Shown here piece after piece: positions 435-26,569 of a DNA stretch of 26,615 nucleotides. Origin of the DNA: a virus. The stretch spans positions 1-26,615 of the IMG/VR virus record IMGVR_UViG_3300010389_000105; one strand, given 5' to 3'. Within the stretch, counting starts at the first letter, position 1, and every line of letters starts with the position of its first letter. The position numbers and the translations under genes were made by a program. Below the pieces are notes generated by a model, which saw only the letters and a list, made by a program, of their open reading frames with translations, had not been told where the DNA came from and searched no databases.

Positions 435-667
435 AGCTGGTCAAAAGTAAATGTGAGAAAGCTTGGTTGTTTGATACAACCAAGCGGAATGATGAAATTG
501 CTGCTGGATTGGCGTGCTTCTTGCCTGGCTGCGGGGAAAGCCTTGAGGTGGAGTTTCGCGGAGAAGACTGCCGTATTGTCGTGCCATTAAGGGCTGTAAA
601 TAGCCCTGTGCCAGTAAAAGTGACCAACGCTAGACTCTCTCTGCTTATTAGCGCCCCCCATGAGTAA
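431..667 (+). CDS. Small hypothetical protein in tail operon
   Basis: A 78-residue protein that I do not recognise. It starts at an ATGA overlap with the preceding gene and overlaps the next gene by 8 bp, so translational coupling is likely. The sequence looks beta-rich (LEVEFRGEDCRIVVPLRAV, then VPVKVTNARLSLLI) with four cysteines in the first two thirds (C8, C29, C34, C47). No signal peptide or transmembrane segment is visible. Tight packing between the tail completion candidate and the chaperone supports a real gene with a tail assembly or structural role, but no function can be assigned from sequence. Confidence 0.6.
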   Translation: MKLVKSKCEKAWLFDTTKRNDEIAAGLACFLPGCGESLEVEFRGEDCRIVVPLRAVNSPVPVKVTNARLSLLISAPHE

Positions 668-1187
668 ATATTCCTCGTTTTTTCTTCTCAGCAGCCCAGA
701 GTACGAGAAGCTTGGCGATAAGTTGCGTCTACGGAAGTATGGCAGTTGGCTTGCAGAGGAGGCGTGGCTGAGGGAGGAGCAATCCCAGAAGCGGGCGCTG
801 TTTACTTTGAAGGCCATCGACCTGGCCCGCAAGATTGCCAAGGAGAAGGGCATCGAAGACGCCGAAGCGTTTGAGATGCTGCAGAGCAGCGGCATGGTTG
901 ACGAGGAGCTGATGGGCGGCTATGCGGCGGAGGCTACGGCTCTCATGGAGAGCATGCCATCCAATCGCAGCCAGTTGGAGCAGCTCGTGACGATATTCTT
1001 TCGCAATAGGGGAGAAGTGCTGCAGGGCAAGAAGTGGGAGCCCACGGACGATTGGACAGATGAAGACACCAAGATGCTGCCCAAGGTGGTGCTCGATCAA
1101 GTGGAGGAATTCATGGTGGCAGAGGAGACCACTGGCGTGGTGAAAGATGAAGATGAAGAGCCAGGCGAGGAAGAAGCAAAAAACTAA
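660..1187 (+). CDS. Tail assembly chaperone, lambda gpG-like
   Basis: A 175-residue helical, highly charged protein with an acidic C-terminal tail (DEDEEPGEEEAKN). Position directly before the tape measure region and the frameshift arrangement identify it as the short form of the tail assembly chaperone pair (lambda G/GT type), which binds the tape measure during tail assembly and is absent from the mature virion. The last codons, GCA AAA AAC TAA, contain a perfect A_AAA_AAC -1 slippery heptamer. A fraction of ribosomes should shift there and make a 311-residue G-T fusion. The start at 660 has no Shine-Dalgarno and overlaps the upstream gene by 8 bp. Family is assigned by organisation more than by residue identity. 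Confidence 0.82.
   Translation: MSKYSSFFLLSSPEYEKLGDKLRLRKYGSWLAEEAWLREEQSQKRALFTLKAIDLARKIAKEKGIEDAEAFEMLQSSGMVDEELMGGYAAEATALMESMPSNRSQLEQLVTIFFRNRGEVLQGKKWEPTDDWTDEDTKMLPKVVLDQVEEFMVAEETTGVVKDEDEEPGEEEAKN
1178..1184 (+). promoter_or_regulatory. Programmed -1 frameshift slippery site (A_AAA_AAC)
   Basis: The heptamer AAAAAAC sits in frame as GC[A AAA AAC] TAA, the canonical X_XXY_YYZ arrangement. The zero-frame stop is the very next codon (1185-1187). After a -1 slip, translation continues CTA ATC GTT CGG... without a stop to 1594. The downstream reading frame has no ATG for about 180 nt and only a weak TTG at 1220, so frameshifting is the natural way to express it. Confidence 0.88.
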
Positions 1188-1594
1188 TCGTTCGGTTAGC
1201 TGAGCGGTCAGAAGCTGTTTTGAAAACAGCCACTGACTGGACATTTCTTTATTGCCAGCTAACCGCACTCAACCTTCCCGATCCTATTTTTCACGCATCG
1301 AATTTTGCTCGATTGCCAGTGCGCTTGATTACAGACGTGCTGGACAATAGTGCAAGGGTGTCTCGCATGCGGGCCAATGCCAATAGCGTTGCCACTGCGA
1401 AGATGGGAGCAATGGTTGCGTCTGCGCTTGGCAGCAAGAACAATCAAGTGAAGGTGTCTGACTTCCTGCCTTACGAAATGGAAGAAGACAACACCAGCGT
1501 TTCGGAACGCACTAAAGAAGTGCTCAAATGGGCACTGAAAACCCAGAAACTCCCCACTGCCATTGTTGCAATGGTGGGAAGTGAATTGTCGTAA
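1184..1594 (+). CDS. T extension of tail chaperone (gpGT, via -1 frameshift)
   Basis: This open frame continues from the slippery site and adds 136 residues to the 175-residue G-like protein, giving a 311-residue fusion. It begins LIVRLAERSEAVLKTATDW and includes an Asn/Pro-rich stretch (ALNLPDPIFHASNFARLP) and a helical C-terminus. By analogy with lambda GT, the T part should recruit the major tail protein while the G part holds the tape measure. No Shine-Dalgarno or ATG exists near its beginning; a TTG at 1220 is the only alternative start, and I consider it unlikely. The protein family is too variable to confirm by motif, but the placement (chaperone pair, then tape measure) is typical. 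Confidence 0.82.
   Translation, partial: LIVRLAERSEAVLKTATDWTFLYCQLTALNLPDPIFHASNFARLPVRLITDVLDNSARVSRMRANANSVATAKMGAMVASALGSKNNQVKVSDFLPYEMEEDNTSVSERTKEVLKWALKTQKLPTAIVAMVGSELS
1193..1265 (+). promoter_or_regulatory. Nested stem structure, candidate frameshift stimulator
   Basis: CGGTTAGCTG (1193-1202) is perfectly complementary to CAGCTAACCG (1256-1265), giving a 10-bp outer helix that begins 8 nt after the slippery heptamer, within the usual spacer length. Inside it, 1205-1211 pairs with 1233-1239 (7 bp, one G-U). After a 2x2 internal loop, GCTGTTT (1214-1220) pairs with AAACAGC (1224-1230) around a UGA triloop. All of this lies in the -1 frame coding region of the T part. The pairing is seen in the sequence; the stimulatory role is inference from spacing. 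Confidence 0.7.
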
Positions 1595-1635: not shown

Positions 1636-2154
1636 GTGACGTATCAAGTCCGCTTTGAGAGCAATGCGTTCAAAGCTGATAGTGCTATCGGTAAGGCCTT
1701 GGAGGCATTGCAGCGGACGATCAACGGCGCGAAGAAGATTGCTGGCGTAAGAATTCGGGAAGAAGAAGTGAATCGCCTAGTCAAACTTAAGGGTGTGAAC
1801 CAGCGCGTCTTTGCTCGTGCAATGGACTGGGCTGACAATGATTTTGATCAGCAAATTACGTCCGAGAAGTGGGACTGGAAGGGGCCAGATGTGCAGACGC
1901 GCAGGAAGAACGGCCAGGTGGTGACAGAGCCTCGCGATATTGTTGACACTTCTACATTGTTAAACAGTAAACGACGAGAAGATATTACGAGTTCTGTTAC
2001 TGAGTTTGAATGGACAGCGCCGCACGCGGAAGGTGTTCATGACGGTTATGTTGCAAGAGGCGGTGGCCGCAATCCTGCGAGACCATGGACGGAGCCAACC
2101 ATCGAAGATCTAGACGAGGTTATTAAGACCTTGTTTGAGGAGGGCACTAAGTAA
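1636..2154 (+). CDS. Minor tail/connector-like protein (HK97 gp10 or lambda Z type, tentative)
   Basis: A 172-residue protein starting at GTG 1636; no ATG is available in frame after the upstream stop at 1615-1617. The N-terminal half is helical (residues about 10-70). The C-terminal half contains VDTSTLLNS, a strand with EFEWTAPHAEGVHDGY, then ARPWTEPTIEDLDEVIKTLF. This resembles the HK97 gp10-like and lambda Z pattern: a beta strand, an 'A..vh.G', 'aRPw..p', then a terminal helix. Such proteins cap or complete the tail or its head junction. The position between chaperone and tape measure is unusual for the family. The stop overlaps the tape measure ATG (TAATG). Family call is tentative. Confidence 0.55.
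   Translation: MTYQVRFESNAFKADSAIGKALEALQRTINGAKKIAGVRIREEEVNRLVKLKGVNQRVFARAMDWADNDFDQQITSEKWDWKGPDVQTRRKNGQVVTEPRDIVDTSTLLNSKRREDITSSVTEFEWTAPHAEGVHDGYVARGGGRNPARPWTEPTIEDLDEVIKTLFEEGTK
2137..2144 (+). promoter_or_regulatory. Strong Shine-Dalgarno for tape measure gene
   Basis: GAGGAGGG lies inside the last codons of the preceding gene, 9 nt before the ATG at 2154. It is one of the few strong ribosome binding sites in the window and supports that start. Confidence 0.7.
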
Positions 2155-5100
2155 TGGCACGTTATACGATTGATTTCTCTACAAACGCGAGCGCCGTCGT
2201 TCGCGAGATAGAGAAGGTTAACCGTGAGATTGCGGACGTAGCCAGGAATGGCAAGAAGGTAACAATCAATCTCGACACGAGCGGGCTCAAGACGCAGATC
2301 AGTGCGACGTTTGCGCAGCTCAATCGAGAGATTGCCTCTATGCAGGCAAAGCTGTCGAAGCTTCAAATTGGCAGTCAGCCTTTCAGGAAGACTGCGGCAG
2401 CCATGGGCTTCCGCGAGGGGCAGGTAGAACGCGGGCAGATGATTGCGCAGCCCCTAAGGCTGCGCGGCCAGGCCCAATCTTTTGAAGAGGGTTCTCTCAC
2501 TCGCCTGCAGAAGGAGCTGCAAGCAGCGCAAATTGAAGCTGCGCAGATCAAGCCCGCCACTGAGCCATGGATGCGGCTTCAGACGGAGATCGCCCGCATT
2601 AGTGGTCAGCTACAAAAGGCCGACAAGCTTGCGGAAAGCATCAAACTTACGAATGACCTGGGAGCTTTTTCTTCTGGGAGCTTGAACCAGCTTGAGGCGA
2701 AGCTCACCATTCTTCGTAATCGGGCGAGGGAAATCTCGCCTAATAACAGTGAATGGAAGGAGCTTAACAAAGAGATTGTTAAGGCCGAACAGGGCATTGC
2801 AAAACAGACGAAGAAGCCCCTGACAAGGGGGCAGCGTCTTGGCGCTGCTGGTGGTGCCTTCCTGTATGGTGGCGGCCTTGGAGGCGGCGCTGGTAGCGCC
2901 ATTGGTGGTATTGCTGGCGGTCTCATGGGAGGCGTGCCAGGTGCCTTTACAGGCGCCGCTATTGGCCAGGCAGTAGACAATCTGGGGCAATACGCCGCTG
3001 CCATCGCGACAACAGTTGCAAACGTCAACAAGGCTCGCGTGGCGCTTGCTGGCGTCACTCGCAATGTTGATGATTACGACAATGCACTGGCTGCGGCAAC
3101 GGCGGCAAGCAATAAATTCTTGTTGCCAATTTCTGATGCCACAAGACAATTTGCACGTTTGCAAGCAAGTATTGCTGGCGCTGGTTATCAAACTGATACA
3201 ACCAAGAAAGTATTTGACGGCATTGCCGCAGCCATTGTTGCGACTGGTGGCAAAACAGAAGATCTAAATGGAGCGCTGCTTGCTACTGCCCAGGTGTTTA
3301 GTAAGGGCAAGGTAAGTGCGGAAGAGCTTCGCGGACAAATTGGTGAGCGCTTGCCTGGTGCTTTCACTGTCTTTGCGGCATCTATCAACAAAACGCCACA
3401 AGAACTTGACGATGCGCTCCAAAAAGGCGAAGTCAGCCTTGAGGATTTTGTTAAATTCACTGAAGAGTTAACAAAGCGCTACGGCAAGACTGCAGAGATT
3501 CTTGCAAGTGCGCCAGAAAATGCTGGTGCCCGACTAAAGGTTGCATTAGAAGCTGCCCAGGTAAGCTTTGGTGGATTTTTCCAAGTAGTTGGGGCTGGCT
3601 TCCAATCTTACGTCGCGGATCTTGTCAATTTTGCACTGAAAAACGAAGAAACAATCAAGACTGTCATCGCGCAGTTTGGCGTATTTGCGCAAGATCTTTA
3701 CACAATCCTTTCTGGCGTAATCGAGGCAATTGCTCCAATCTTCCAGAATTTCTTCTCTTGGATGTTTGATAATTTTGCGAAGGGCTTGAATGCCCTCGCG
3801 AAATTGGCCGATGAGAGCAGGAGGGCTGCTGGCGGTCCCGAGAAGCGTGCGCAGGCAATGGTCGATGCCCTTTATCAGGGGCGTCCTCTTGAGGGGCACT
3901 TTGGCGGCAGAAGGAAGGCTTATGAGGAGGCTCTTCGTGTTGAATTGGCTTATGAGGGTGAGGCCTCTCAGCGACAGAAGACAAGGCAGCAGCAGATTAA
4001 CGATCTCAAGAAGACCTTGTTCCCCAACTTCAAGCCCACATCGTTTGGTAGTGGGCTTGGAAGCACCGCTGTTGGTTTGCCTGGGGCAGGTGGCGGAGCA
4101 GGCGGCAAGGCTAAAGCTGGTAAGGAACTCAAGGAATACACAAGCGACCGCATCGACATCCTCAAGTCGGAGATGCAGCAGAAGCTTGCTGCCATCGATC
4201 AAGATGAGAGTATCTTCTCCCGCGAGAAGGAGCTGCAGAAGGCTCGCACTGCAATGCAGTACGAAGGCCTCATCTTGCAGGAGCAGGCACGTCTTGCCCA
4301 GCAGGAAGCAGCCAAATTCACGCCTGAAACTCGCGGACTATTCCTTGAGGAGAAGAAGCAGGAGTTTGACAGAGAAGCTCTGCGCCTCAAGAACGAATAT
4401 GCAAGCGTTGTCAAAGGGCCTTTGATGGATGCTGCCGAGAGCTATAACCAAGCTCTCGATGAGGAGGCCAAGAAGCTTGAACTGGCGATACTTGGCAGGG
4501 AGCGTCTCACCTTTGCTGAAGAGACAGAGGCTCTCATCCGTGACAAGCTTGTTGGTGCCACGGAAGAAGAGAAGCAAATGGCAGAAGGGCTCATCAAAAC
4601 CCTTCGTGACCTAGCGCTTGCACGAGACAATGCCTTCTCTAGTAACTACCTCCTCAACATTGAGAACAAACTAAGGGAGGCAAGAGAGCAAGCTGCTGCT
4701 CCGCTAGGCCAAGAAGGCCTGGTGGCTCGGCAGCAAGAATTCAGGAGAGAGAATATTGATCCAGCACAGGCAGAGCAATACTTTGCTCAAGAGCAAGAGC
4801 TTGAGAAGGTGCAGCGCATGCGCCAAGCCTTCCAAGGCTTGGCTTCCGATATCAACAGCGGCCTTGGCACTGCCATCACTGATATTGTCACCGACTTTGC
4901 CAACATGCAGCAGCATGGTCTCACCTTCATTGAGACCCTTGCCAATGCATTCAAGAGCCTGGCCAATACGATCATTCAAGAGATGACGAGGGCATTGGTG
5001 AACCAGGCAGTATCGAAGCTGCTTGGTGGCGCCCTGGGCATGCTTGGCGGTGGATTATCTGGCGGCAACATGGGTGGATCTGGTTACTACAACCCAATGA

Positions 5101-5468
5101 CTGGGGTTGGAACTGCTGGTCCCAACTTTGGCTTCAAAGCCGCCAATGGAGGCATTGCTCCTGGAGGATTCCGTGCATTTGCTTCTGGTGGCGTTGTAAC
5201 TGGCCCGACCATGGGCCTCGTGGGAGAAGGCCGCTTCAACGAAGCCGTAGTGCCATTGCCTGACGGCAAGAAGATTCCAGTGGAGCTTGGTGATGGCGCA
5301 GGTAGCAACATTGCTACTAACATTGTTGTCAACGTCAACAACGGCCAAGCATCGTCTCAAATGAGCGGCAATGGTGGTCAATCACTGGGTCGCGAGCTTG
5401 AAGGGGCTGTTCGCAGCGTCATCCTCAAAGAAACTCGCCCTGGTGGCATCATTTACAACCAGCGTTAA
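2154..5468 (+). CDS. Tail tape measure protein
   Basis: At 1104 residues, this is the longest gene in the window. Residues about 1-220 are helical and charged. About 225-292 is a Gly/Ala-rich hydrophobic stretch. About 293-466 matches the tape-measure N-terminal domain pattern (SNKFLLPISDATRQFARLQ, GKVSAEELRGQIGERLPGA). About 479-545 is a second hydrophobic segment (SGVIEAIAPIFQNFFSWMF). About 560-890 is charged coiled coil. About 895-970 resembles the lambda-type C-terminal domain, and the end carries PTMGLVGEGRFNEAVVPLP (about 1018-1036), a common tape-measure signature. The protein sets tail length and is ejected during infection; the hydrophobic segments may act at the host membrane. It follows the chaperones, as expected. 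Confidence 0.95.
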   Translation: MARYTIDFSTNASAVVREIEKVNREIADVARNGKKVTINLDTSGLKTQISATFAQLNREIASMQAKLSKLQIGSQPFRKTAAAMGFREGQVERGQMIAQPLRLRGQAQSFEEGSLTRLQKELQAAQIEAAQIKPATEPWMRLQTEIARISGQLQKADKLAESIKLTNDLGAFSSGSLNQLEAKLTILRNRAREISPNNSEWKELNKEIVKAEQGIAKQTKKPLTRGQRLGAAGGAFLYGGGLGGGAGSAIGGIAGGLMGGVPGAFTGAAIGQAVDNLGQYAAAIATTVANVNKARVALAGVTRNVDDYDNALAAATAASNKFLLPISDATRQFARLQASIAGAGYQTDTTKKVFDGIAAAIVATGGKTEDLNGALLATAQVFSKGKVSAEELRGQIGERLPGAFTVFAASINKTPQELDDALQKGEVSLEDFVKFTEELTKRYGKTAEILASAPENAGARLKVALEAAQVSFGGFFQVVGAGFQSYVADLVNFALKNEETIKTVIAQFGVFAQDLYTILSGVIEAIAPIFQNFFSWMFDNFAKGLNALAKLADESRRAAGGPEKRAQAMVDALYQGRPLEGHFGGRRKAYEEALRVELAYEGEASQRQKTRQQQINDLKKTLFPNFKPTSFGSGLGSTAVGLPGAGGGAGGKAKAGKELKEYTSDRIDILKSEMQQKLAAIDQDESIFSREKELQKARTAMQYEGLILQEQARLAQQEAAKFTPETRGLFLEEKKQEFDREALRLKNEYASVVKGPLMDAAESYNQALDEEAKKLELAILGRERLTFAEETEALIRDKLVGATEEEKQMAEGLIKTLRDLALARDNAFSSNYLLNIENKLREAREQAAAPLGQEGLVARQQEFRRENIDPAQAEQYFAQEQELEKVQRMRQAFQGLASDINSGLGTAITDIVTDFANMQQHGLTFIETLANAFKSLANTIIQEMTRALVNQAVSKLLGGALGMLGGGLSGGNMGGSGYYNPMTGVGTAGPNFGFKAANGGIAPGGFRAFASGGVVTGPTMGLVGEGRFNEAVVPLPDGKKIPVELGDGAGSNIATNIVVNVNNGQASSQMSGNGGQSLGRELEGAVRSVILKETRPGGIIYNQR

Positions 5469-8642: not shown

Positions 8643-10613
8643 ATGGAAAAGCTGTACGGACAAGATCAGCAATGGAAGATCAGCGGATCCAAGAAGGGCG
8701 GTGGCGCGAGCACCCCAACTGAAGACCCAGATACACTGCGAAGCAGGGGCGAGGCAAGTCTCTTGGCGGCTTTATGCGAAGGCGAGGTCGAAGGGTTTCC
8801 TACAGATGGAGTTCGGGGAAGTCATATTTATTTAGATGGCACACCATTGCAGACCAGTAGTGGTGACGCAAATTTCAATACCAAAGGCGATGAAGATGTG
8901 ACTGTCCAGTTTAGAACTGGCACTCAGTCGCAGTCACCGATGAGTGGGTTTTCTGATGTCCGCATTGAGCAAAGTTCTGGCGTAAAACTGTCGAAAAGCA
9001 CTGGGGAGACATCTGTCACTACTACCAGTGCCGAGTTGGACAGCATTGTCGTGAGGATGGGTGTGGGCTCTCTCTTTAAGATCGAAAAAGATGATGGAGA
9101 CATTAAAGGCACCTCTGTCGAATTTAGGGTTTCGATTGTCGATATAACAGGCAGCAAAGTGGGAGGCGGAGATTTCACTATCGAAGGTAAGAGCAGGGGG
9201 CCTTTTGAGAGGGAGTATGGTTTTGGACTCTCAGGAACTGGTCCATGGACTGTAAGAGTCAAGCGCTTAAGCGCTGATCCAGAAGACTTAAAAGTAAACA
9301 ACGATTTGTACTTCAAGGCGGTCGTTGGCATTATTTCTGACAAATTCTCCTATCCCAATACAGCGCTAATTGGGATGAAATTTGCGTCGGAGGCGTTTAA
9401 TAGTGTTCCAAGAATCTCCGTTGAGCTTAAGGGTCTAAAAATCAAAGTACCAAAAGACGTTAGCTCTACTGGGGTGTGGGGAGGGAAGTTCACGACCGAG
9501 TACAGCAATAATCCTGCGTGGGTGCTTTATGACCTGATGACAAATACGCGCTATGGCGCTGGACTTTTCATAGAAGAGGACGATGTAGACATCTACTCTC
9601 TATATGAAATAGCAAAATATTGCGATGAAAAAGTCTCGGACGGGAAAGGCGGCAAGCATAAGCGCTTTACCTTCAATGGCGTAATTAACAATAGGGCGGA
9701 AGCGTATGAAGTAATGAATGGCATTGCTGCTGTTTTTAGGGGCATGATTTACTTTGCCCAGGGCACAATCATGGCCACCCAAGACAGGCCTGGTAGCGTC
9801 GCTCGGCAATTTAGTCCCAGCAATGTCATCGTGGATGTAGATGACACTGGAACCGTAACTGGTCCTCCATTTGTATATGAAGGCACCGCTCTAAAAGCAA
9901 GAAAAACTGCAGCCCTTGTTTCATGGAATGACAGCTCAGATGGATTCAAGAGCAAGGTGGAATACGTGGAAGATGCATCTGGCATCCAGAGATATCAATA
10001 CAGAGAAACCGAAGTCAGGGCCTTTGGTACGACAAACAGGGCTCAAGCAAGGAGGGTTGGATACTGGACATTGTTAACAAATTTGAACGAAACAGAGACT
10101 GTCACATTCAAGGTTGGAGCGGAAGGATTCTTTCTTATGCCTGGAGATATTATTGAGATTATCGATCCCTATAGGACTCCTGGATTGGCTGCGGGAGCAC
10201 TGTCAGAAGCAAGCACTACTGGACTTGTTCTGGATCGCAATGTCACATTGAAAGATGGTATTTCGTATGAGATTATCATCAGGGATGGCGGGCAAGAGTT
10301 CCAGGCTGCAATCACAAGTTCTGCTGGTGTAACAAACAATATTTCAGTGTCGCCAGCTTTTGCGATTGCGCCAGAAGCAGGGTCGGCCTGGTTCATCCGA
10401 GAGGCCAATATTGAAGCGAAGAAATACAGGGTTACAAGCCTTGCCGAAGAGAAAGGGGTTGTGACGGTTATGGGCACTCAATATTACGAAGCCAAGTATG
10501 ACTTGGTTGACAAGCTGTCACTACTTTCACCGCAACTCACATCGGTGGCCACGTCTAAGCTGATAAACGTACCATCTGTTGCGCCACTCTCCATTGGATT
10601 CTCGGGATTATGA
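8643..10613 (+). CDS. Tail tip attachment protein, lambda gpJ-like N-terminal body
   Basis: A 656-residue homologue of roughly the first 620 residues of lambda J (about 1130). Collinear landmarks include RGEASLLAALCEGEVEGFPTDG near the start, YPNTALIGMKFASEAF (lambda YPNTALVGVQVDSEQF), then WGGKFTTEYSNNPAW and YDLMTNTRYGAG, CDEKVSDGKGGKHKRFTFNG, and TVTFKVGAEGFFLMPGDIIEI. This part forms the tip hub and channel. The FN3 and receptor-binding regions of lambda J are missing; the next gene encodes an FN3-like domain instead. No Shine-Dalgarno is seen; tandem stops of gpI precede the ATG directly. The adhesin function has probably moved to separate downstream fibre genes. Confidence 0.93.
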   Translation: MEKLYGQDQQWKISGSKKGGGASTPTEDPDTLRSRGEASLLAALCEGEVEGFPTDGVRGSHIYLDGTPLQTSSGDANFNTKGDEDVTVQFRTGTQSQSPMSGFSDVRIEQSSGVKLSKSTGETSVTTTSAELDSIVVRMGVGSLFKIEKDDGDIKGTSVEFRVSIVDITGSKVGGGDFTIEGKSRGPFEREYGFGLSGTGPWTVRVKRLSADPEDLKVNNDLYFKAVVGIISDKFSYPNTALIGMKFASEAFNSVPRISVELKGLKIKVPKDVSSTGVWGGKFTTEYSNNPAWVLYDLMTNTRYGAGLFIEEDDVDIYSLYEIAKYCDEKVSDGKGGKHKRFTFNGVINNRAEAYEVMNGIAAVFRGMIYFAQGTIMATQDRPGSVARQFSPSNVIVDVDDTGTVTGPPFVYEGTALKARKTAALVSWNDSSDGFKSKVEYVEDASGIQRYQYRETEVRAFGTTNRAQARRVGYWTLLTNLNETETVTFKVGAEGFFLMPGDIIEIIDPYRTPGLAAGALSEASTTGLVLDRNVTLKDGISYEIIIRDGGQEFQAAITSSAGVTNNISVSPAFAIAPEAGSAWFIREANIEAKKYRVTSLAEEKGVVTVMGTQYYEAKYDLVDKLSLLSPQLTSVATSKLINVPSVAPLSIGFSGL

Positions 10614-12934: not shown

Positions 12935-14485
12935 ATGCCTGACATTGAAGAAGGTCAACAGGTAGTAACAGTTGGCAGAACTGAGCCTATTCAGGCGGGT
13001 CAGGCGACCATGGAAAAGTCGCTGCCTGTTGCCCTGGCCAGCGACCAAACCCCTATCCCCATCCTTGATAATCTCAGTGCCCCTTCTGAGGTGCATGATG
13101 ATTTGTTGGGCAATCCCCGTGTGCAAACAAGTCTTGCGCTTTGGGATTCGACCAACATTATTGCCATCGATCCAAAGCTTTGGAAGCTAACGGAGGACCG
13201 AGAGGGCAATCCTCTTCATGCAACAGTCACTCACCTTCCCCAGGAAAGTGGTGCTCAGCTTTTAATCAATACCAATGCGCCCAACTCTACGGTGGCGCAA
13301 ATGCAAAGCCGTCTGGTGTTCCCATACCAGACTGGACGTATCACTGATGCCAGTTTTGGTATCAGCATGCTGCGCAATGTGAATGCAATTCACGAAGCTG
13401 GCCTGTTTGATGAGAAGAATGGCTATATCGTTCGCGTTATTGGCAATGATTTATTCTTTGTTCGCCGCACAAATTCTGGAGAAACTCCGCAGAACCACGG
13501 CGCACCTGCTGGATCGACAGATTTCACTGTCACCGATCCAACATCTATCTATTTCAACCATCGCTACCGCCTTTTGCCCGATGATCCTTCCGTCATGGAA
13601 GAGATTGTTCCGCGCAGCGTATTCACTGGAGACAAACTGAACGGCATTGCCCCCAGCATCCACACGCTGAGCCTGGCAAATGTCACGATGTTCCGCATCC
13701 AGATGGGCTGGTACGGCGGTTCGGCTTGCAGGCTGATGGCTTACGTGCCAGTTGACGAAAACCTGCCTGGTGGTGCCGAGCCCAAGAATGCTCGCTGGGT
13801 GACCATTCACCAGATCAACACTTGCGACCGCCTGCCGTTCCCCAGTCTTGGTAATCCCAATCTGCCTTTGACGTTCCGCGTCGTCAAGTCGGGAAGCCTT
13901 GCCCAGGCAGTGTTCCTGAAGATTTACGGAACCAAAGTAGAGGTGGATGGTGGAGACGCCACGAAGTATGACATCTTTTCGCGTGCATCTTCTTCGGTGC
14001 AGGTGAATCCTGGCGTACCCCGCGCCCTGATCTCTATTCGCTGCAAAGAAAATATTGTCAATGCAGAGGGAGCCATTACAAAGAACATCTTGCGTGTTGT
14101 TCCTTTGATGCTCAACCTGTCTTCTGCATCTTCGACGAAGTTTACGCTTGTGAAGAATGCAAGTGGCCTTGTGATTAGCGGAGCCACATACGATCCCAAG
14201 GAAGCTGGAAACCAGTGGGTGTCAGCCTCCCAACTTTCTGCTATTGAATACAACACCACCGCCTCTGGTATTTCTGGCGGCGAAATTGTTACCACGTTCT
14301 TTACTGGTGATGATGACGGACAGAATCTGGAGCTTGGCGAAATCTTCCGTTTCAACCGCGAATTCCTCACTCGTCCAATTTCTAATGAAGCTGGCGAGTC
14401 TGGTGACGTATTAACTCTTGTCGCCGAAAGTCTCGCAGTTAGCGGGAATACGGTGGCTGGTTCAATTACCTGGGGCGAGCGCTGA
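12935..14485 (+). CDS. FPYQ-type virion structural protein, paralogue 1
   Basis: A 516-residue protein, one of three related genes here (with 14514 and 25358). Shared landmarks are LGNPR near the N-terminus, RLVFPYQTGR (from about residue 126), AGLFDEKNGYIVRVIGNDLFFV, GWYGG (258-262), and a later PLTFRVVKSG. I recall this family as abundant virion or fibre proteins of cyanobacterial phages. It probably forms beta-rich fibre or baseplate-like parts around the tip; enzymatic function is not visible. An AAGGA lies 3-4 nt before the ATG at 12935, a rather short spacing. The last 100 residues form a further beta region (SAIEYNTTASGISGGEIVTT). Confidence 0.75.
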   Translation: MPDIEEGQQVVTVGRTEPIQAGQATMEKSLPVALASDQTPIPILDNLSAPSEVHDDLLGNPRVQTSLALWDSTNIIAIDPKLWKLTEDREGNPLHATVTHLPQESGAQLLINTNAPNSTVAQMQSRLVFPYQTGRITDASFGISMLRNVNAIHEAGLFDEKNGYIVRVIGNDLFFVRRTNSGETPQNHGAPAGSTDFTVTDPTSIYFNHRYRLLPDDPSVMEEIVPRSVFTGDKLNGIAPSIHTLSLANVTMFRIQMGWYGGSACRLMAYVPVDENLPGGAEPKNARWVTIHQINTCDRLPFPSLGNPNLPLTFRVVKSGSLAQAVFLKIYGTKVEVDGGDATKYDIFSRASSSVQVNPGVPRALISIRCKENIVNAEGAITKNILRVVPLMLNLSSASSTKFTLVKNASGLVISGATYDPKEAGNQWVSASQLSAIEYNTTASGISGGEIVTTFFTGDDDGQNLELGEIFRFNREFLTRPISNEAGESGDVLTLVAESLAVSGNTVAGSITWGER

Positions 14486-14513
14486 TCGCCTTTCACATTG
14501 TTAGTTATTGCTC

Positions 14514-16703
14514 ATGGCACCGTACTACCAGCTTTCGCATGAAGTAGGGCAAAAGCGCTACGCAGTTCCTAGTGGTGCCAACGCTGGCGCCGTCTTGCAA
14601 GAGGCTGGTGAGTTTCCAGTTGGGCAAGCGCTAATGGAAGAGAGCATTCCAGTGGTGGTTCCACTGGAAGGCTCTCCTCTTACGATTACAAAGTATCTTG
14701 AAAAACCATCAGAAATAAAAGTAGATATTCTTGGCAACCCAAGAACTGACGAAGCGCTTAGCCTTTTTAATTACACTGACGATTACGCTTTTCGGGATGA
14801 CATTTATGTCACGGAAATCCAAGGGTTAAACGAAAGCGGTGAAGACGATGAAGAGAGTGCCAAGTGGAGCCAGTTAGAGCGAGTTGGAGTTAATTACTCA
14901 CCGCTTCCCGTAGGTTCGTTTAGGCACGATATTCGCCGTAGGGGTGTAAATGTTGAGCTTGCCAAGGCTACTGGAGGCTTCCAACGCGCTCGCCTAAGCA
15001 CACGAAAGAGGTTCCGTTATCAGACAGGGCGCGTCATGCGCATGTCTGTATGCGTGCAGATGAGTCTTGCCGACCTGCCTGCGTGCGAAAAGCTTTGGGG
15101 CATTGGAGATAGCCAGGATGGCTTCTTCTTCCAAATTAGAGCCGCTGGCGAGGGAGATGATTTCCGAATTGTCTATCGTCGTTCATCTGGCGATGGTTTG
15201 CTGAAGGAAGTTGTTGTTCCCCGTAGCGAGTTCAACCACGACCCAATGGATGGCACTGGCTACAGCGGTGCCAATATTGACTTCACCAAGAACTGCATGT
15301 ATCTGGTGGAGTGGGGCTGGTATGGCGCCAGTTCTGCCCGCTTCTACGCCTTTGTCGTAGACGAGCAAGAGGGGCTGCCCGCGACCGTCCGTAAGGTGCC
15401 CCGTGGTCGCTGGGTGCTGATGCACGAGCTGCTTATTCCCGACAGCCTTGATGCGCCAAGTCTTGGCACTCCAGTGCTGCCATTCACTCTAGAGGTGAGC
15501 AACACTGGCTACCTCGTTGCGCCGCAGTTCATCTTTAAGTATGGACTCAGCGTACAGGTGGATGGAGGTGAAAGTGAAAAGGCCGACATTTATGGGGCCG
15601 ATCTATCGAACGGTCGAGATATTGGCCCAGTCCTCGGCGGCAACGCACCGTCTCACTTTTTCCCATTGTTTGCAATTCGCGCCAAAGACTTTGCAAACGG
15701 TAATATTTTGAACACGCTCCAGGGTCTACCAAAGACCCTGGAAATGTTTGCGAACTACGGCACAGAGCTTGCAGTTTTTCGGGATGCCGAATTTGGCGAC
15801 TTTGGCGAAGTTGGGCATTTCAATGGAACGCTGCCAGATGAAGATGGAGGAGACTTCGGCCTTGGCGAATCGTTAATTCTCGCGCCTGGCGGTGATCTCG
15901 TCATTATCACATTGCTGTTTCCAGACGGGAATAATCCAAGCTTCCAAATTATTGACGATGCGGTGACCGAGGGTGTTCTGTCGAATCCAGACGGCTTTGT
16001 CTATGCAGACCCCTTCAATCTTCTTACCCAGCCTCCAGAGCAGCTTCCTTTAACGCTTCAAGACACATATAGCAACACAGACATGGGCACCCTTGAGGGT
16101 AACTTTGTTGTGAAGAAGACTGTTACGGGCAAAGAGCTAACCCGCCTATATATTCCGCCCAATAAGCACTCAACTGTGAAGCTTACGTCGATATACGACT
16201 TGGTGCGCGAATCTATTACAACTGAGTATGACAGTAAATTTGATTTCCCCGTTTCAAACGAGGACTATCAAATCACTTCGATTACAACCGAAGGTGTTGT
16301 CACGCTTGACAGAAAGCACACCATTGAAGAGGGATTCAGGGTTGTTGTCAACAACCAAACCTTCTATGCAAAGACAATTGAGGGTGAGTTTACTTTGACT
16401 TTGGCAAGGTCACGAGGCGGTGCTCAGCTCAATAGAGCTGAAATGTCCATTGACACTCCTGCATACGCACGCGCCTTTTATGACGTTGTCCTCAGCTCTG
16501 CCGTTGCATCCAGGGCTCGCCCAATTCAGCAAAGCGTTATCGCCTTTGCTGCCAGGAGAGTGGAAGATGGCCTGGCCGTAACTGACCTGGGAGAGGTGAA
16601 TGCGGAGTGGATGCGAGTGTCGAACTGCTCAACTACTAATTCCTATAATGTGTTGAGCCCTGTGCCTGAAGTGAGGGCATTCCTTAACTATGGCTTGCGG
16701 TAA
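14514..16703 (+). CDS. FPYQ-type virion structural protein, paralogue 2 (long)
   Basis: 729 residues from the ATG at 14514 (a TTG two codons earlier, at 14508, is a poorer choice). It shares with the previous protein an N-terminal stretch (QALMEESIPVVV, PSEIKVDILGNPR), RFRYQTGR (from about 166), the GWYGA motif (268-272), RWVLMHELLIPDSLDAPSLG, and VQVDGGE. About 250 C-terminal residues (from about 480) are unique and beta-rich, with SVKL-like strands and a terminal domain ending AFLNYGLR. Probably a fibre or tip protein related by duplication to its neighbour and extended by a new C-terminal domain. No Shine-Dalgarno is seen; a 28-nt AT-rich gap precedes it. Confidence 0.75.
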   Translation: MAPYYQLSHEVGQKRYAVPSGANAGAVLQEAGEFPVGQALMEESIPVVVPLEGSPLTITKYLEKPSEIKVDILGNPRTDEALSLFNYTDDYAFRDDIYVTEIQGLNESGEDDEESAKWSQLERVGVNYSPLPVGSFRHDIRRRGVNVELAKATGGFQRARLSTRKRFRYQTGRVMRMSVCVQMSLADLPACEKLWGIGDSQDGFFFQIRAAGEGDDFRIVYRRSSGDGLLKEVVVPRSEFNHDPMDGTGYSGANIDFTKNCMYLVEWGWYGASSARFYAFVVDEQEGLPATVRKVPRGRWVLMHELLIPDSLDAPSLGTPVLPFTLEVSNTGYLVAPQFIFKYGLSVQVDGGESEKADIYGADLSNGRDIGPVLGGNAPSHFFPLFAIRAKDFANGNILNTLQGLPKTLEMFANYGTELAVFRDAEFGDFGEVGHFNGTLPDEDGGDFGLGESLILAPGGDLVIITLLFPDGNNPSFQIIDDAVTEGVLSNPDGFVYADPFNLLTQPPEQLPLTLQDTYSNTDMGTLEGNFVVKKTVTGKELTRLYIPPNKHSTVKLTSIYDLVRESITTEYDSKFDFPVSNEDYQITSITTEGVVTLDRKHTIEEGFRVVVNNQTFYAKTIEGEFTLTLARSRGGAQLNRAEMSIDTPAYARAFYDVVLSSAVASRARPIQQSVIAFAARRVEDGLAVTDLGEVNAEWMRVSNCSTTNSYNVLSPVPEVRAFLNYGLR

Positions 16704-19451: not shown

Positions 19452-20639
19452 ATGGCTGCCCAAGTTCCCATTTACAACCTTCGCAGCGGGACCGCCTCTA
19501 AGCGGCCCGCTGCTTCTGGCCTTGGTTTTGGTCAGATTGCCGTCAACTACAACCAGGAAGATCCTGCCATTTATCTGCGTGGTCATAGTGATGACCTCGT
19601 GAAAGTGGCGCCTGTGTATGTCGGCACCACTGCTCCCAATGCCACGCCTGCAAGTGGAGGCGCCTCTGGAAATACCACTGGCGAGCAATGGCTTGATACC
19701 ACCAATGGTGATTATGTCGTCAAAGTGTATGACGGCACAGCATGGCGCTCGCCTGTTATTACAAGTGCGCTGATTAAAGACGGCACTATTGTCAATGGTG
19801 ACATCAGTGCCTCTGCTGACATTGCACTGAGCAAGCTGGCCACTGGCGCACTTCCGTCTGGCATCACGGTTAATAGTGACAACATTGTTAACGGAAGCAT
19901 TGTTAATGCTGACATTAGCGCTTCTGCCGCTATCTCCCTTGCAAAGCTTGATCCTGGTGCCCTGCCTTCTGGCATTACTATCAACAGCAGCAATATTGTT
20001 GATGGCAGCATTGTCAATGAGGACATTAGCCCCAGTGCAGCTATTGCACTGAGCAAGCTGGAAGCTGGCGCTCTGCCGTCGACTATCACCATCACAAGTT
20101 CCAATATTACGAACGGAACAATTGTTGACGAAGATATTAGCACTGGCGCTGCCATTCAAGATGCGAAGCTGAATACTATTACCACTGCTGGTAAAGTGAG
20201 TGGTGGTGCTATTACTAGCGGGACAATTAGTGGCTCCACTGCAATTAGCACCAGCGGTGCCATTGCAACCACTGGGACACTGGCCGTTGGTCAATCTAGT
20301 GTTGCGACCAACGCTGATTTTGATGTCAATGGCGCACTGGCTCAAACAGTGCAAGCTGTTGGCGCTCTAGATATTGATTGCTCCACTGGTAACTATTTCA
20401 CCAAGACCATCAACGCGAATAGCACATTTACTTTTAGCAATGTGCCCGTTTCTCGCTCTTATAGTTTTGTCCTTGAGCTGACCCACACTTCTGGGACAAT
20501 TACATGGCCCGCTGCTGTTAAGTGGCCGAGTGATGCATCCCCCACATTGACCACTGGCAGGACACATTTGTTTGTGTTTAGCACGGACGACAGCGGAAGC
20601 CGTTGGCGCGGTGCAGCCCTTGTAGACTACGTCAACTAA
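19452..20639 (+). CDS. Repeat tail fibre with Mtd-like N-terminus
   Basis: A 395-residue fibre. Residues 1-60 (LRSGTASKRPAASGLGFGQI, AVNYNQEDPAIYLRG) resemble the short N-terminal fold seen in Mtd-like phage fibres. Residues about 107-254 hold four copies of a 37-residue repeat (core GSIVNADISASAAISLAKL), probably a trimeric beta-helical shaft. Residues about 291-395 form a C-terminal domain shared almost intact with the protein at 24661 (CSTGNYFTKTINANSTFTFS, SGTITWPAAVKWPSD, SRWRGAALVDYV), presumably the distal knob. A 40-nt gap lacking a Shine-Dalgarno precedes the ATG. The gene is the fused counterpart of the pair at 24337 and 24661. Confidence 0.8.
   Translation: MAAQVPIYNLRSGTASKRPAASGLGFGQIAVNYNQEDPAIYLRGHSDDLVKVAPVYVGTTAPNATPASGGASGNTTGEQWLDTTNGDYVVKVYDGTAWRSPVITSALIKDGTIVNGDISASADIALSKLATGALPSGITVNSDNIVNGSIVNADISASAAISLAKLDPGALPSGITINSSNIVDGSIVNEDISPSAAIALSKLEAGALPSTITITSSNITNGTIVDEDISTGAAIQDAKLNTITTAGKVSGGAITSGTISGSTAISTSGAIATTGTLAVGQSSVATNADFDVNGALAQTVQAVGALDIDCSTGNYFTKTINANSTFTFSNVPVSRSYSFVLELTHTSGTITWPAAVKWPSDASPTLTTGRTHLFVFSTDDSGSRWRGAALVDYVN
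19770..20213 (+). repeat. Four 111-nt in-frame tandem repeats
   Basis: Units begin at 19770, 19881, 19992 and 20103, exactly 111 nt (37 codons) apart. The encoded units begin LIKDG, NIVNG, NIVDG and NITNG and include GTIVNGDISAS or GSIVNADISAS-type cores. The first three are closest and the last is the most divergent at its end. The exact period indicates expansion by in-frame duplication, later diverged at DNA level. Confidence 0.85.
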
Positions 20640-24660: not shown

Positions 24661-25347
24661 ATGGCTTACGGAAGTGTAAAAGTTGATTCGATTACAACCA
24701 GCACCAAGACAATAACGGTTGATAATCTTCTAGATGGTGCAGCGGGAAGCATTACAAGTGCAATGATCGCCGATGGTGCCATTGTCAATGGCGACATCAA
24801 TGCGTCTGCGGCAATTGCCTACAGCAAGCTTTCACTGTCTAACAGTATTGTCAACGCAGATATAAACTCATCTGCGGCCATCGCAGACAGCAAGCTTGCC
24901 ACTATTTCCACTGGCGGGAAAGTAAGTGGCACTGCCATTACCAGTGGCAACTTGAGCACAAGCGGCAGTATTGCTACCACTTCAACGCTCGCAGTTGGAC
25001 AGTCAAGCGCAGCGGCTAACACTGATCTTGATGTGAATGGCGCCTATGCAGGCAACGTGGTGGCCGTGGCAGCGCTTGATATCAATTGTTCCACTGGTAA
25101 CTATTTCACAAAGACAATCAGCTCTAACAGTACATTCACCTTCAGTAACGTGCCGTCGAGCAGGGCTTATAGCTTCACCCTTGAAGTGGACCACAACAGT
25201 GGAACGATTACCTGGCCTGCAGCAGTTAAATGGAATGGCGACACCGCCCCCACGTTGACCACTGGCAAAACCCATCTGTTTATTTTTGTCACCGACGATG
25301 GTGGCAGTCGCTGGCGCGGCATGGCCGCCGTTGATTTCGTTGATTGA
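24661..25347 (+). CDS. Repeat tail fibre with shared C-terminal knob
   Basis: A 228-residue paralogue of the C-terminal part of the protein at 19452. It has an N-terminal lead (MAYGSVKVDSITTSTKTITV), two short repeats (GAIVNGDINASAAIAYSKL, NSIVNADINSSAAIADSKL), a link KVSGTAITSGNLSTSGSIAT, and the shared C-terminal domain from about residue 120 (CSTGNYFTKTISSNSTFTFS, SGTITWPAAVKWNGD, SRWRGMAAVDFVD). The shaft has fewer repeats than the left copy. No Shine-Dalgarno is visible 5' of the ATG, which follows the previous stop by 3 nt. Confidence 0.82.
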   Translation: MAYGSVKVDSITTSTKTITVDNLLDGAAGSITSAMIADGAIVNGDINASAAIAYSKLSLSNSIVNADINSSAAIADSKLATISTGGKVSGTAITSGNLSTSGSIATTSTLAVGQSSAAANTDLDVNGAYAGNVVAVAALDINCSTGNYFTKTISSNSTFTFSNVPSSRAYSFTLEVDHNSGTITWPAAVKWNGDTAPTLTTGKTHLFIFVTDDGGSRWRGMAAVDFVD

Positions 25348-25357: not shown

Positions 25358-26569
25358 ATGGGACAAATTCGCATTAACGACGAACAGTTTGAAACTGGCA
25401 TCGTCGCTGACCATCGTGGTCAGCTCCTATCAGTGGGGCCTGATAGCGGCGTAGTCGATGCGTTTGGCAGACAGCGCGTAAGCGAACCTTTCACTCTGTT
25501 TGATAGCACGATGCGCTTTGATGCGCGTCCTGATCTATGGTTCACAGCACTTGCAGGCGGTGGTGCTGCAACGCACCTGCCCAACGAGAGTTCACTCTCT
25601 ATGGCTGTCACCACCAATGGTGACAGCGTGCTGCGCCGTTCTAAGAAGCGCTTTCCCTATCAGCCAGGAAAGAGCTTGCAAATTCTGCAAAGTTTTGTAG
25701 GCACCACTCCTGTTGATGGTCTTGTTCAGGAGTGTGGTTTATTCGATGATGACAATGGCATTATGGTGCGCGTGAATGGCACCACTGTCCAGTTTGTCAT
25801 TCGCGGAAAATACGATGGCACCGTTCAGGAAACAGTCATCAATCAAGATGATTGGAATATTGACACATACGATGATCTAGATATTTCCAAGGCCAACATT
25901 TTTACCGCCGACATTGAATGGCTTGGCGCTGGTCGCGTGAGGCTTGGTTTTGTTGTTGATGGCGAATACAAATATTGCCATGAACAGAATCACGCTAATG
26001 CCATTGATCACGTTTATATGACCACGGCTATTCTGCCGTGCTCCTATCGCATTGCTAGCACTGGCCCCGCTGGGACCATGAAGCAAATTTGCACCAGCGT
26101 GCAAAGCGAAGGTGGATATGAGCCCTCTGGCCCCATCTACATTGCTAGCCGTGGTGCAAGTGGCGTGGCTGCTATTACCAGTGAGCAAGTGGTGGCTGGC
26201 ATTCGCATGGCAAGTGGTCGCACTGGCAATGTGATCATGCCCACGCAAGTAGATGCCACTATTGAAGGCAATACAACAGCGCTTTGGCGCCTGCGTCTCA
26301 ATCCAACCATCATTAGCGGCACTTGGACTACAGCAGACAATGGACGTGGCAATGTTCAAACCCTCACTGCCGCTACATTCTCTGGTGGCACCGTTGTGGC
26401 TGCTGGCCTCGTTGGAAGTCGTGGTAGCACTGCATTCAATGCTGAATCTGCATTGAGCCTTGCTTTGGGCGTCGATGAGAATGGCGCGTCAGACATTCTG
26501 GTGTTGACCATGGAAGCCGACAGCTCTACGAAAGGTTTAGGCGTACTGGGATGGCGTGAGCTGGTGTAG
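25358..26569 (+). CDS. FPYQ-type virion structural protein, paralogue 3
   Basis: A 403-residue third member of the family at 12935 and 14514. Landmarks: DAFGRQRVSEPFTLFDSTMR, KRFPYQPGKSLQIL (about 97-110), ECGLFDDDNGIMVRVNGTTV, ADIEWLGAGRVRLGFVVDGE (187 onward), then CHEQNHAN and YMTTAILPCSYRIASTG. This is the most canonical copy; I recall near-identical motifs in cyanophage virion proteins. The C-terminal 120 residues (IEGNTTALWRLRLNPTIISG and onward) form another beta domain. It is the last complete gene in the window and closes the second cassette. Likely a fibre or tip protein; no enzyme signature. Confidence 0.82.
   Translation: MGQIRINDEQFETGIVADHRGQLLSVGPDSGVVDAFGRQRVSEPFTLFDSTMRFDARPDLWFTALAGGGAATHLPNESSLSMAVTTNGDSVLRRSKKRFPYQPGKSLQILQSFVGTTPVDGLVQECGLFDDDNGIMVRVNGTTVQFVIRGKYDGTVQETVINQDDWNIDTYDDLDISKANIFTADIEWLGAGRVRLGFVVDGEYKYCHEQNHANAIDHVYMTTAILPCSYRIASTGPAGTMKQICTSVQSEGGYEPSGPIYIASRGASGVAAITSEQVVAGIRMASGRTGNVIMPTQVDATIEGNTTALWRLRLNPTIISGTWTTADNGRGNVQTLTAATFSGGTVVAAGLVGSRGSTAFNAESALSLALGVDENGASDILVLTMEADSSTKGLGVLGWRELV

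Follow-up and report, generated by a model that had tools for sequence, protein, structure and literature searches.

A putative lambda-type G/GT −1 frameshift signal with a nested downstream RNA structure in a family of aquatic viruses

The lambda G/GT shift and its counterparts in long-tailed phage relatives have been described (Levin 1993; Xu, Hendrix, Duda 2004, as cited in PMC5009743). In lambda, the −1 product is a minority product and carries a T domain needed for tail assembly (PMC5009743). Slippery sites such as A_AAA_AAC and C_CCA_AAG, together with stimulators composed of a Shine-Dalgarno (SD) sequence and a stem, are established elements (PMC5009743; PMC4066793). A_AAA_AAC is unusual for bacteria, and Sharma et al. 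reported AAC to AAA re-pairing to be less acceptable to E. coli ribosomes (PMC4066793). A literature search found no paper on the G/T frameshift of the virus family analysed here.

The window, that is the whole stretch of DNA under study, is a 26.6-kb viral record (IMG/VR virus record IMGVR_UViG_3300010389_000105, positions 1 to 26,615). G sits 5′ of a lambda-like H-M-L-K-I-J series: 3′ of G and T come an ORF at 1636-2154, the tape measure gene and then relatives of lambda M, L, K, I and J in the lambda order. The genes and signals concerned are:

660..1187, + strand: gene G, putative tail assembly chaperone of 175 aa (ORF, with its stop TAA at 1185-1187).
1167..1171, + strand: internal Shine-Dalgarno-like GAGGA, with 7 nt between the end of its GAGG and the heptamer.
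1178..1184, + strand: slippery heptamer A_AAA_AAC, in phase and adjoining the G stop (3′ end of G GCA AAA AAC TAA, 1176-1187).
1184..1594, + strand: T, read for 136 codons in the −1 frame beyond the shift (open frame, stop at 1592-1594; conserved in all relatives).
2154..5468, + strand: tail tape measure protein (PHROG 339, E 4.6e-35; Pfam TMP_3, E 4.8e-22).

The first-pass annotation had spoken of a chaperone gene. We keep this name for G because of the gene order, which fits it; neither sequence nor fold matches allow a confident name for G or T. Neither protein of the window matched Pfam or PHROG at E 0.001, and T gave a weak match to phrog_337 ‘tail protein’ (best E 0.015). Viral fold matches were mostly unnamed, a named tail chaperone being among them at E 0.14. 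Foldseek and VIA-align searches with an AlphaFold2 model of G (pLDDT 79) yielded nothing useful in the PDB, and the AlphaFold2 model of T was poor (pTM 0.30). By analogy with described tail genes, G and G-T may act as chaperones. The ORF at 1636-2154, at a place where lambda has none, matches phrog_37577 weakly.

Both G and the J-like protein have Synechococcus phage S-CBS4 as nearest isolate. The virus is apparently a relative of Synechococcus phages, and a cyanobacterial host is therefore likely. A near-DNA search of phage records with the window gave no match. Relatives of G were also sought in a genome contig collection and none was found, so that this collection holds no prophage evidence. 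Two features of the tail-fibre genes were seen in passing: a C-terminal module is duplicated between two tail-fibre-like proteins (20241-20611 and 24947-25319; DNA 71% and protein 64% identical), and three diverged paralogues of the virion structural protein PHROG 1645 (12935-14485, 14508-16703 and 25358-26569) lie in one tail-fibre region.

To follow the junction through evolution, two G-based scans of IMG/VR were performed, giving some 80 loci. After removal of duplicates and incomplete loci, the final set comprised 67 distinct IMG/VR junctions (window included) and the isolate S-CBS4, 68 in all. Homologues of G are thus present in 67 further loci, with 51-91% identity in the IMG/VR relatives; identity to the window's T was 35-86% in the IMG/VR rows sampled, with a TDW motif near the start of T kept. 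In every one of the 68 junctions T is homologous and lies in the −1 frame after G, and an in-phase X_XXY_YYZ heptamer is found in the overlap. These heptamers are A_AAA_AAC adjoining the stop in 33 cases, C_CCA_AAA or C_CCA_AAG adjoining the stop in 20, C_CCA_AAG three or six codons before the stop in 13 and A_AAA_AAA in 2. As background, elsewhere in the homologous G genes in-phase X_XXY_YYZ occurs at 31 of 10305 codons, and no other gene of the window has an in-phase heptamer adjoining its stop. In a tree built from G and T together, essentially one branch divides the A_AAA_AAC from the C_CCA_AAR group. The first-pass annotation had placed a slippery heptamer against the G stop, which proved exact to the base in coordinates and counts, and had predicted a 311-residue peptide, which agrees with 175 residues of G and 136 of T, the −1 frame being open up to 1594. 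Its reading of the junction as a −1 frameshift is supported by the 68 homologous junctions.

The six A's in the heptamer of the window and its clade could also suit transcriptional slippage, in which RNA polymerase would add a base on the A6 run and mixed mRNAs would encode G and G-T. However, 35 of the 68 junctions do not carry A_AAA_AAC, and most of these have C_CCA_AAR, with runs of three or four A's, at the homologous place. A downstream covarying stem and an upstream SD that both track the heptamer, documented below, are moreover stimulators of ribosomes and not of polymerase. We consider polymerase slippage extremely improbable.

Translation of T on its own was examined through the start codons available in its frame. 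In 49 of 67 loci, no ATG, GTG or TTG precedes the conserved TDW. The remaining loci have few start-like codons, at positions that vary even in the four closest relatives of the window, and none is conserved. Re-initiation or an internal start after the G stop, with an incidental heptamer and with GAGG as the ribosome-binding site of T, could draw on the presence of the SD-like GAGG near the end of G and, in the window, on a TTG at 1220 in the T frame. The conserved T residues R4 and L5 nevertheless lie upstream of this TTG and could not be produced from it; starts, where present, differ in place and type, even within the five closest loci; and the interval between GAGG and the heptamer is constant at 7 or 10 nt, with no conserved start codon nearby. 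Independent translation of T is thus very unlikely, and −1 slippage on the heptamer is retained.

The SD-like element, GAGGA in the window (anti-SD duplex −5.9 kcal/mol), had not been noticed in the first-pass annotation. The end of G upstream of the heptamer is a Glu-rich stretch, where GAA and GAG would be expected to vary freely. Compared with synonymous shuffles, pairing with the 16S tail was nevertheless 5.5 to 7.6 SD better, with z about −6 in the A_AAA_AAC set and −7.6 in the C_CCA_AAR set. The distance from the 3′ end of GAGG to the heptamer is 7 nt in 23 of 33 A_AAA_AAC loci and 10 nt in 18 of the 20 C_CCA_AAR loci with the heptamer next to the stop, so that the signal is present separately in both heptamer groups, each at its own spacing. 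Codon choice follows the same pattern: at codon −6 of the A_AAA_AAC set, 26 of 29 Glu codons are GAG (background 0.40), at codon −7 of the C_CCA_AAR set with the heptamer next to the stop all 18 of 18 are GAG (background 0.31), and codons −5 and −4 avoid GAG. The P values for GAG at the one relevant codon, 3e-8 and 9e-10, are uncorrected for kinship, which inflates them. Judged by codon choice, the SD-like element is under strong synonymous selection in both major clades.

Downstream of the heptamer, the following RNA features were delineated:

1185..1192, + strand: spacer of 8 nt containing the 0-frame stop TAA (read from the sequence).
1193..1202, + strand: 5′ arm of the outer helix P1, CGGTTAGCTG (100% of cells paired in five loci; also in RNAalifold).
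1256..1265, + strand: 3′ arm of P1, CAGCTAACCG, in perfect 10-bp pairing with CGGTTAGCTG.
1205..1239, + strand: inner hairpin, made of P2 (1205-1211/1233-1239; 7 bp, one of them G-U) and topped in the window by P3 (1214-1220/1224-1230; 7 bp).
1241..1250, + strand: possible small third hairpin (1241-1243/1248-1250), a weak 3-bp stem seen in the RNAalifold consensus only, with which the fold would become a three-way junction; in the window's own minimum free energy fold it lies 2 nt earlier.

The first-pass annotation had described a 10-bp perfect helix beginning 8 nt downstream and enclosing the 1205-1239 hairpin, and the sequence bears this out. RNAfold of 1170-1280, the fold that it had suggested, gave −34.7 kcal/mol, with z −3.96 against dinucleotide shuffles, none of 200 being as good. 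When shuffles preserved the T protein and codon counts, z was −3.1, again with 0 of 200 as good, and in 2000 synonymous shuffles no Watson-Crick helix that started 5-11 nt beyond the heptamer exceeded 8 bp, so that 10 bp was never reached. The downstream structure of the window is not due to chance. Rfam scans, one of the window and one of 1120-1320 with a permissive E, returned chance-level matches only and no known frameshift element.

Covariation was examined in the clade of the window, consisting of five loci that align without gaps (the window and L002-L005, on the same contigs as L021-L024). P1 is fully paired in all five, with two pairs changed on both sides (U-A to C-G and C-G to U-A). 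P2 is 91% paired, and its pair 1210-1234 runs through four pair types (A-U, U-A, C-G or G-C), at third codon positions on both sides. Compensatory changes, proposed as a check for both helices, are thus present in each. All covariation measures for the five loci were above 500 of 500 column shuffles and above every slid control. RNAalifold, unprompted, returned the same two helices, together with a covarying outward extension (1190-1191/1267-1268) and the weak third stem. By contrast, the innermost 7 bp, P3 (1214-1230), are paired in 63% of cells and are not conserved. Constraint is also apparent in silent positions throughout the A_AAA_AAC set: the CGG codon of the 5′ arm is invariant in 33 of 33 loci (synonymous identity 1.0, expected 0.20), and GCC at T codon 8 reaches a synonymous identity of 0.97, against 0.26 expected. 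The claim of a nested two-stem stimulator therefore stands for P1 and P2, on compensatory changes, synonymous constraint and a fold-energy trough just after the G stop, but not for P3.

The nested architecture belongs to this clade of five. In a sister clade of 24 loci with the same heptamer, the same 5′ arm, CGGCTTGC at the same 8-nt spacing, pairs with GCAAGCCG three bases away, and the distal site offers no more than 3-7 pairs out of 10. The pairs of this proximal hairpin hardly vary, which leaves it without covariation evidence of its own. L005/L024, within the window's clade, keeps the distal helix and could also form a partial proximal one (constrained folds −29.7 vs −19.9 kcal/mol). In L025, the 5′ arm has a third partner. 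The partner distance is 53 nt in the window's clade, 3 nt in the sister clade and about 80 nt in L025. We lean towards the view, with some reserve, that the 5′ arm (CGG-Leu-Ala, 8 nt after the heptamer) stays fixed while its partner switches between clades, so that the stimulator would have been rebuilt repeatedly, and that heptamer type and SD spacing (7 vs 10 nt) changed together at one deep branch. Like the upstream GAGGA, this sister clade with the same 5′ arm and a nearby partner is new beyond the first-pass annotation.

Pooled over all loci, folding beyond synonymous expectation peaks at T codons 1-24, directly after the G stop (72-nt windows). The mean z is −2.13 and −1.80 in the two heptamer groups, falling to about −0.4 six codons further on. 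A second, shallower excess is seen at T codons 31-60 (1277-1366 in the window, and relatives), with mean z about −1 in both heptamer groups. In the window itself, T codons 67-90 have a folding z of −3.0. A possible offset of the weaker A_AAA_AAC by stronger structure was considered, the mean z being −2.12 vs −0.94 in 108-nt windows and only −2.13 vs −1.80 in 72-nt windows; we do not claim it because the 72-nt difference is small and the comparison is a single deep contrast on the tree.

In most of the A clade the heptamer and the stem are separated by 8 nt, in other clades typically by 9-11 nt. Taken together, 5′ arms cluster 8-11 nt after the heptamer. Since this spacing is kept even when 3 or 6 codons separate the heptamer from the stop, the stem follows the heptamer and not the stop. 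Downstream structure is not universal among heptamer-bearing loci. The first-pass annotation would have counted against its reading any homologues that keep the slippery site and lose both stems without compensation. L030 and L032 keep the site with little structure (z −0.5 and −0.3), while other clades keep stems. Going by these two loci, the shift could be genuine and yet depend only on heptamer, adjacent stop and SD, with the RNA structure arising as a by-product of other constraints or serving another purpose, such as mRNA stability. Some prokaryotic −1 sites have no hairpin (PMC4066793), and a second fold-energy dip lies at T codons 31-60. A structure without a role in the shift would, however, hardly account for a stem that moves with the heptamer, for the compensatory changes, for a trough at the very start of T or for unlike stems at about the same spacing in different clades. 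We regard such a dispensable structure as improbable.

The junction is very probably a lambda-type G/GT programmed −1 frameshift with a dnaX/IS911-like three-part signal (SD, heptamer and 3′ structure), as far as comparative sequence analysis can tell. We infer that slippage gives mainly G and some G-T. Most ribosomes would stop at TAA 1185 and release G of 175 aa, and a minority would slip back one base on A_AAA_AAC to give a 311-residue G-T fusion in the −1 frame. GAGGA would pair with the 16S tail of the elongating ribosome and aid slippage, and the RNA structure 8 nt downstream would resist unwinding while two tRNAs occupy the heptamer. If lambda is a guide, the two products, in a fixed ratio, may chaperone the tape measure and major tail proteins.

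This locus adds an unannotated aquatic virus family, apparently of cyanophages, to the set of G/GT frameshifts. In one gene pair, the heptamer, the internal SD and the 3′ structure can each be traced over evolution, with selection discernible on all three, largely in silent codons. If the 5′ arm is indeed a constant anchor, the family would provide a series of naturally occurring stimulators, exchangeable with one another, while the encoded protein stays conserved. With the same arm and different partners by clade, stimulator features (spacing, stability, topology) could be tested by swapping natural versions.

Of the described systems, lambda G/GT shares with the window a −1 shift close to the 3′ end of a tail gene that precedes the tape measure gene, a long T domain in the new frame and the neighbour order H-M-L-K-I-J. 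By sequence, the window's G and T cannot be recognised as homologues of their lambda counterparts; in further contrast to lambda, its family uses A_AAA_AAC (C_CCA_AAR in relatives) with an added SD-like element and a covarying stem, and an extra ORF separates T from the tape measure gene. A_AAA_AAC is also the slippery site of the g-t shift in Haloarcula virus HCTV-2 (PMC5009743), whose host is archaeal.

The E. coli dnaX signal has the same combination of internal SD, heptamer and 3′ stem (PMC5009743), the SD spacing being 10 nt in dnaX, 7 nt in the window and 10 nt in the C_CCA_AAR clade. The dnaX-like parts found in the window are the upstream SD and the 10-bp stem after an 8-nt spacer, with covariation. 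The two signals differ in that dnaX has A_AAA_AAG and a simple 11-bp stem, and the window A_AAA_AAC and a long-range two-helix structure. Frameshifting shortens the product in dnaX and would lengthen it in the window. The IS911 (IS3-family) transposase shift offers a precedent for a branched stimulator: its heptamer is followed by an elaborate stem that encloses stem-loops and forms a three-way junction (PMC5009743). It differs in concerning a transposase and not a tail gene; in the window the third stem is a weak 3-bp prediction and one inner hairpin is supported.

Among isolates, S-CBS4 gp031-gp033 (NC_016766) has homologous G (about 35% identical) and T (33%). Its heptamer is A_AAA_AAA, located 13 codons ahead of the G stop; it is preceded by GGAGGTG and followed after 10 nt by a stem of 15 bp. 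At this locus (NC_016766.1, 9001-9971), G occupies 9001-9546 and T continues in the −1 frame to 9971. The deposited annotation differs in giving separate hypothetical proteins with other boundaries and no G-T fusion; gp031-gp033 are probably mis-annotated here. The kind of frameshift is thus a known one, and what is less ordinary is the view across a family, with a fixed anchor arm, a changing partner and an SD spacing tied to the heptamer type.
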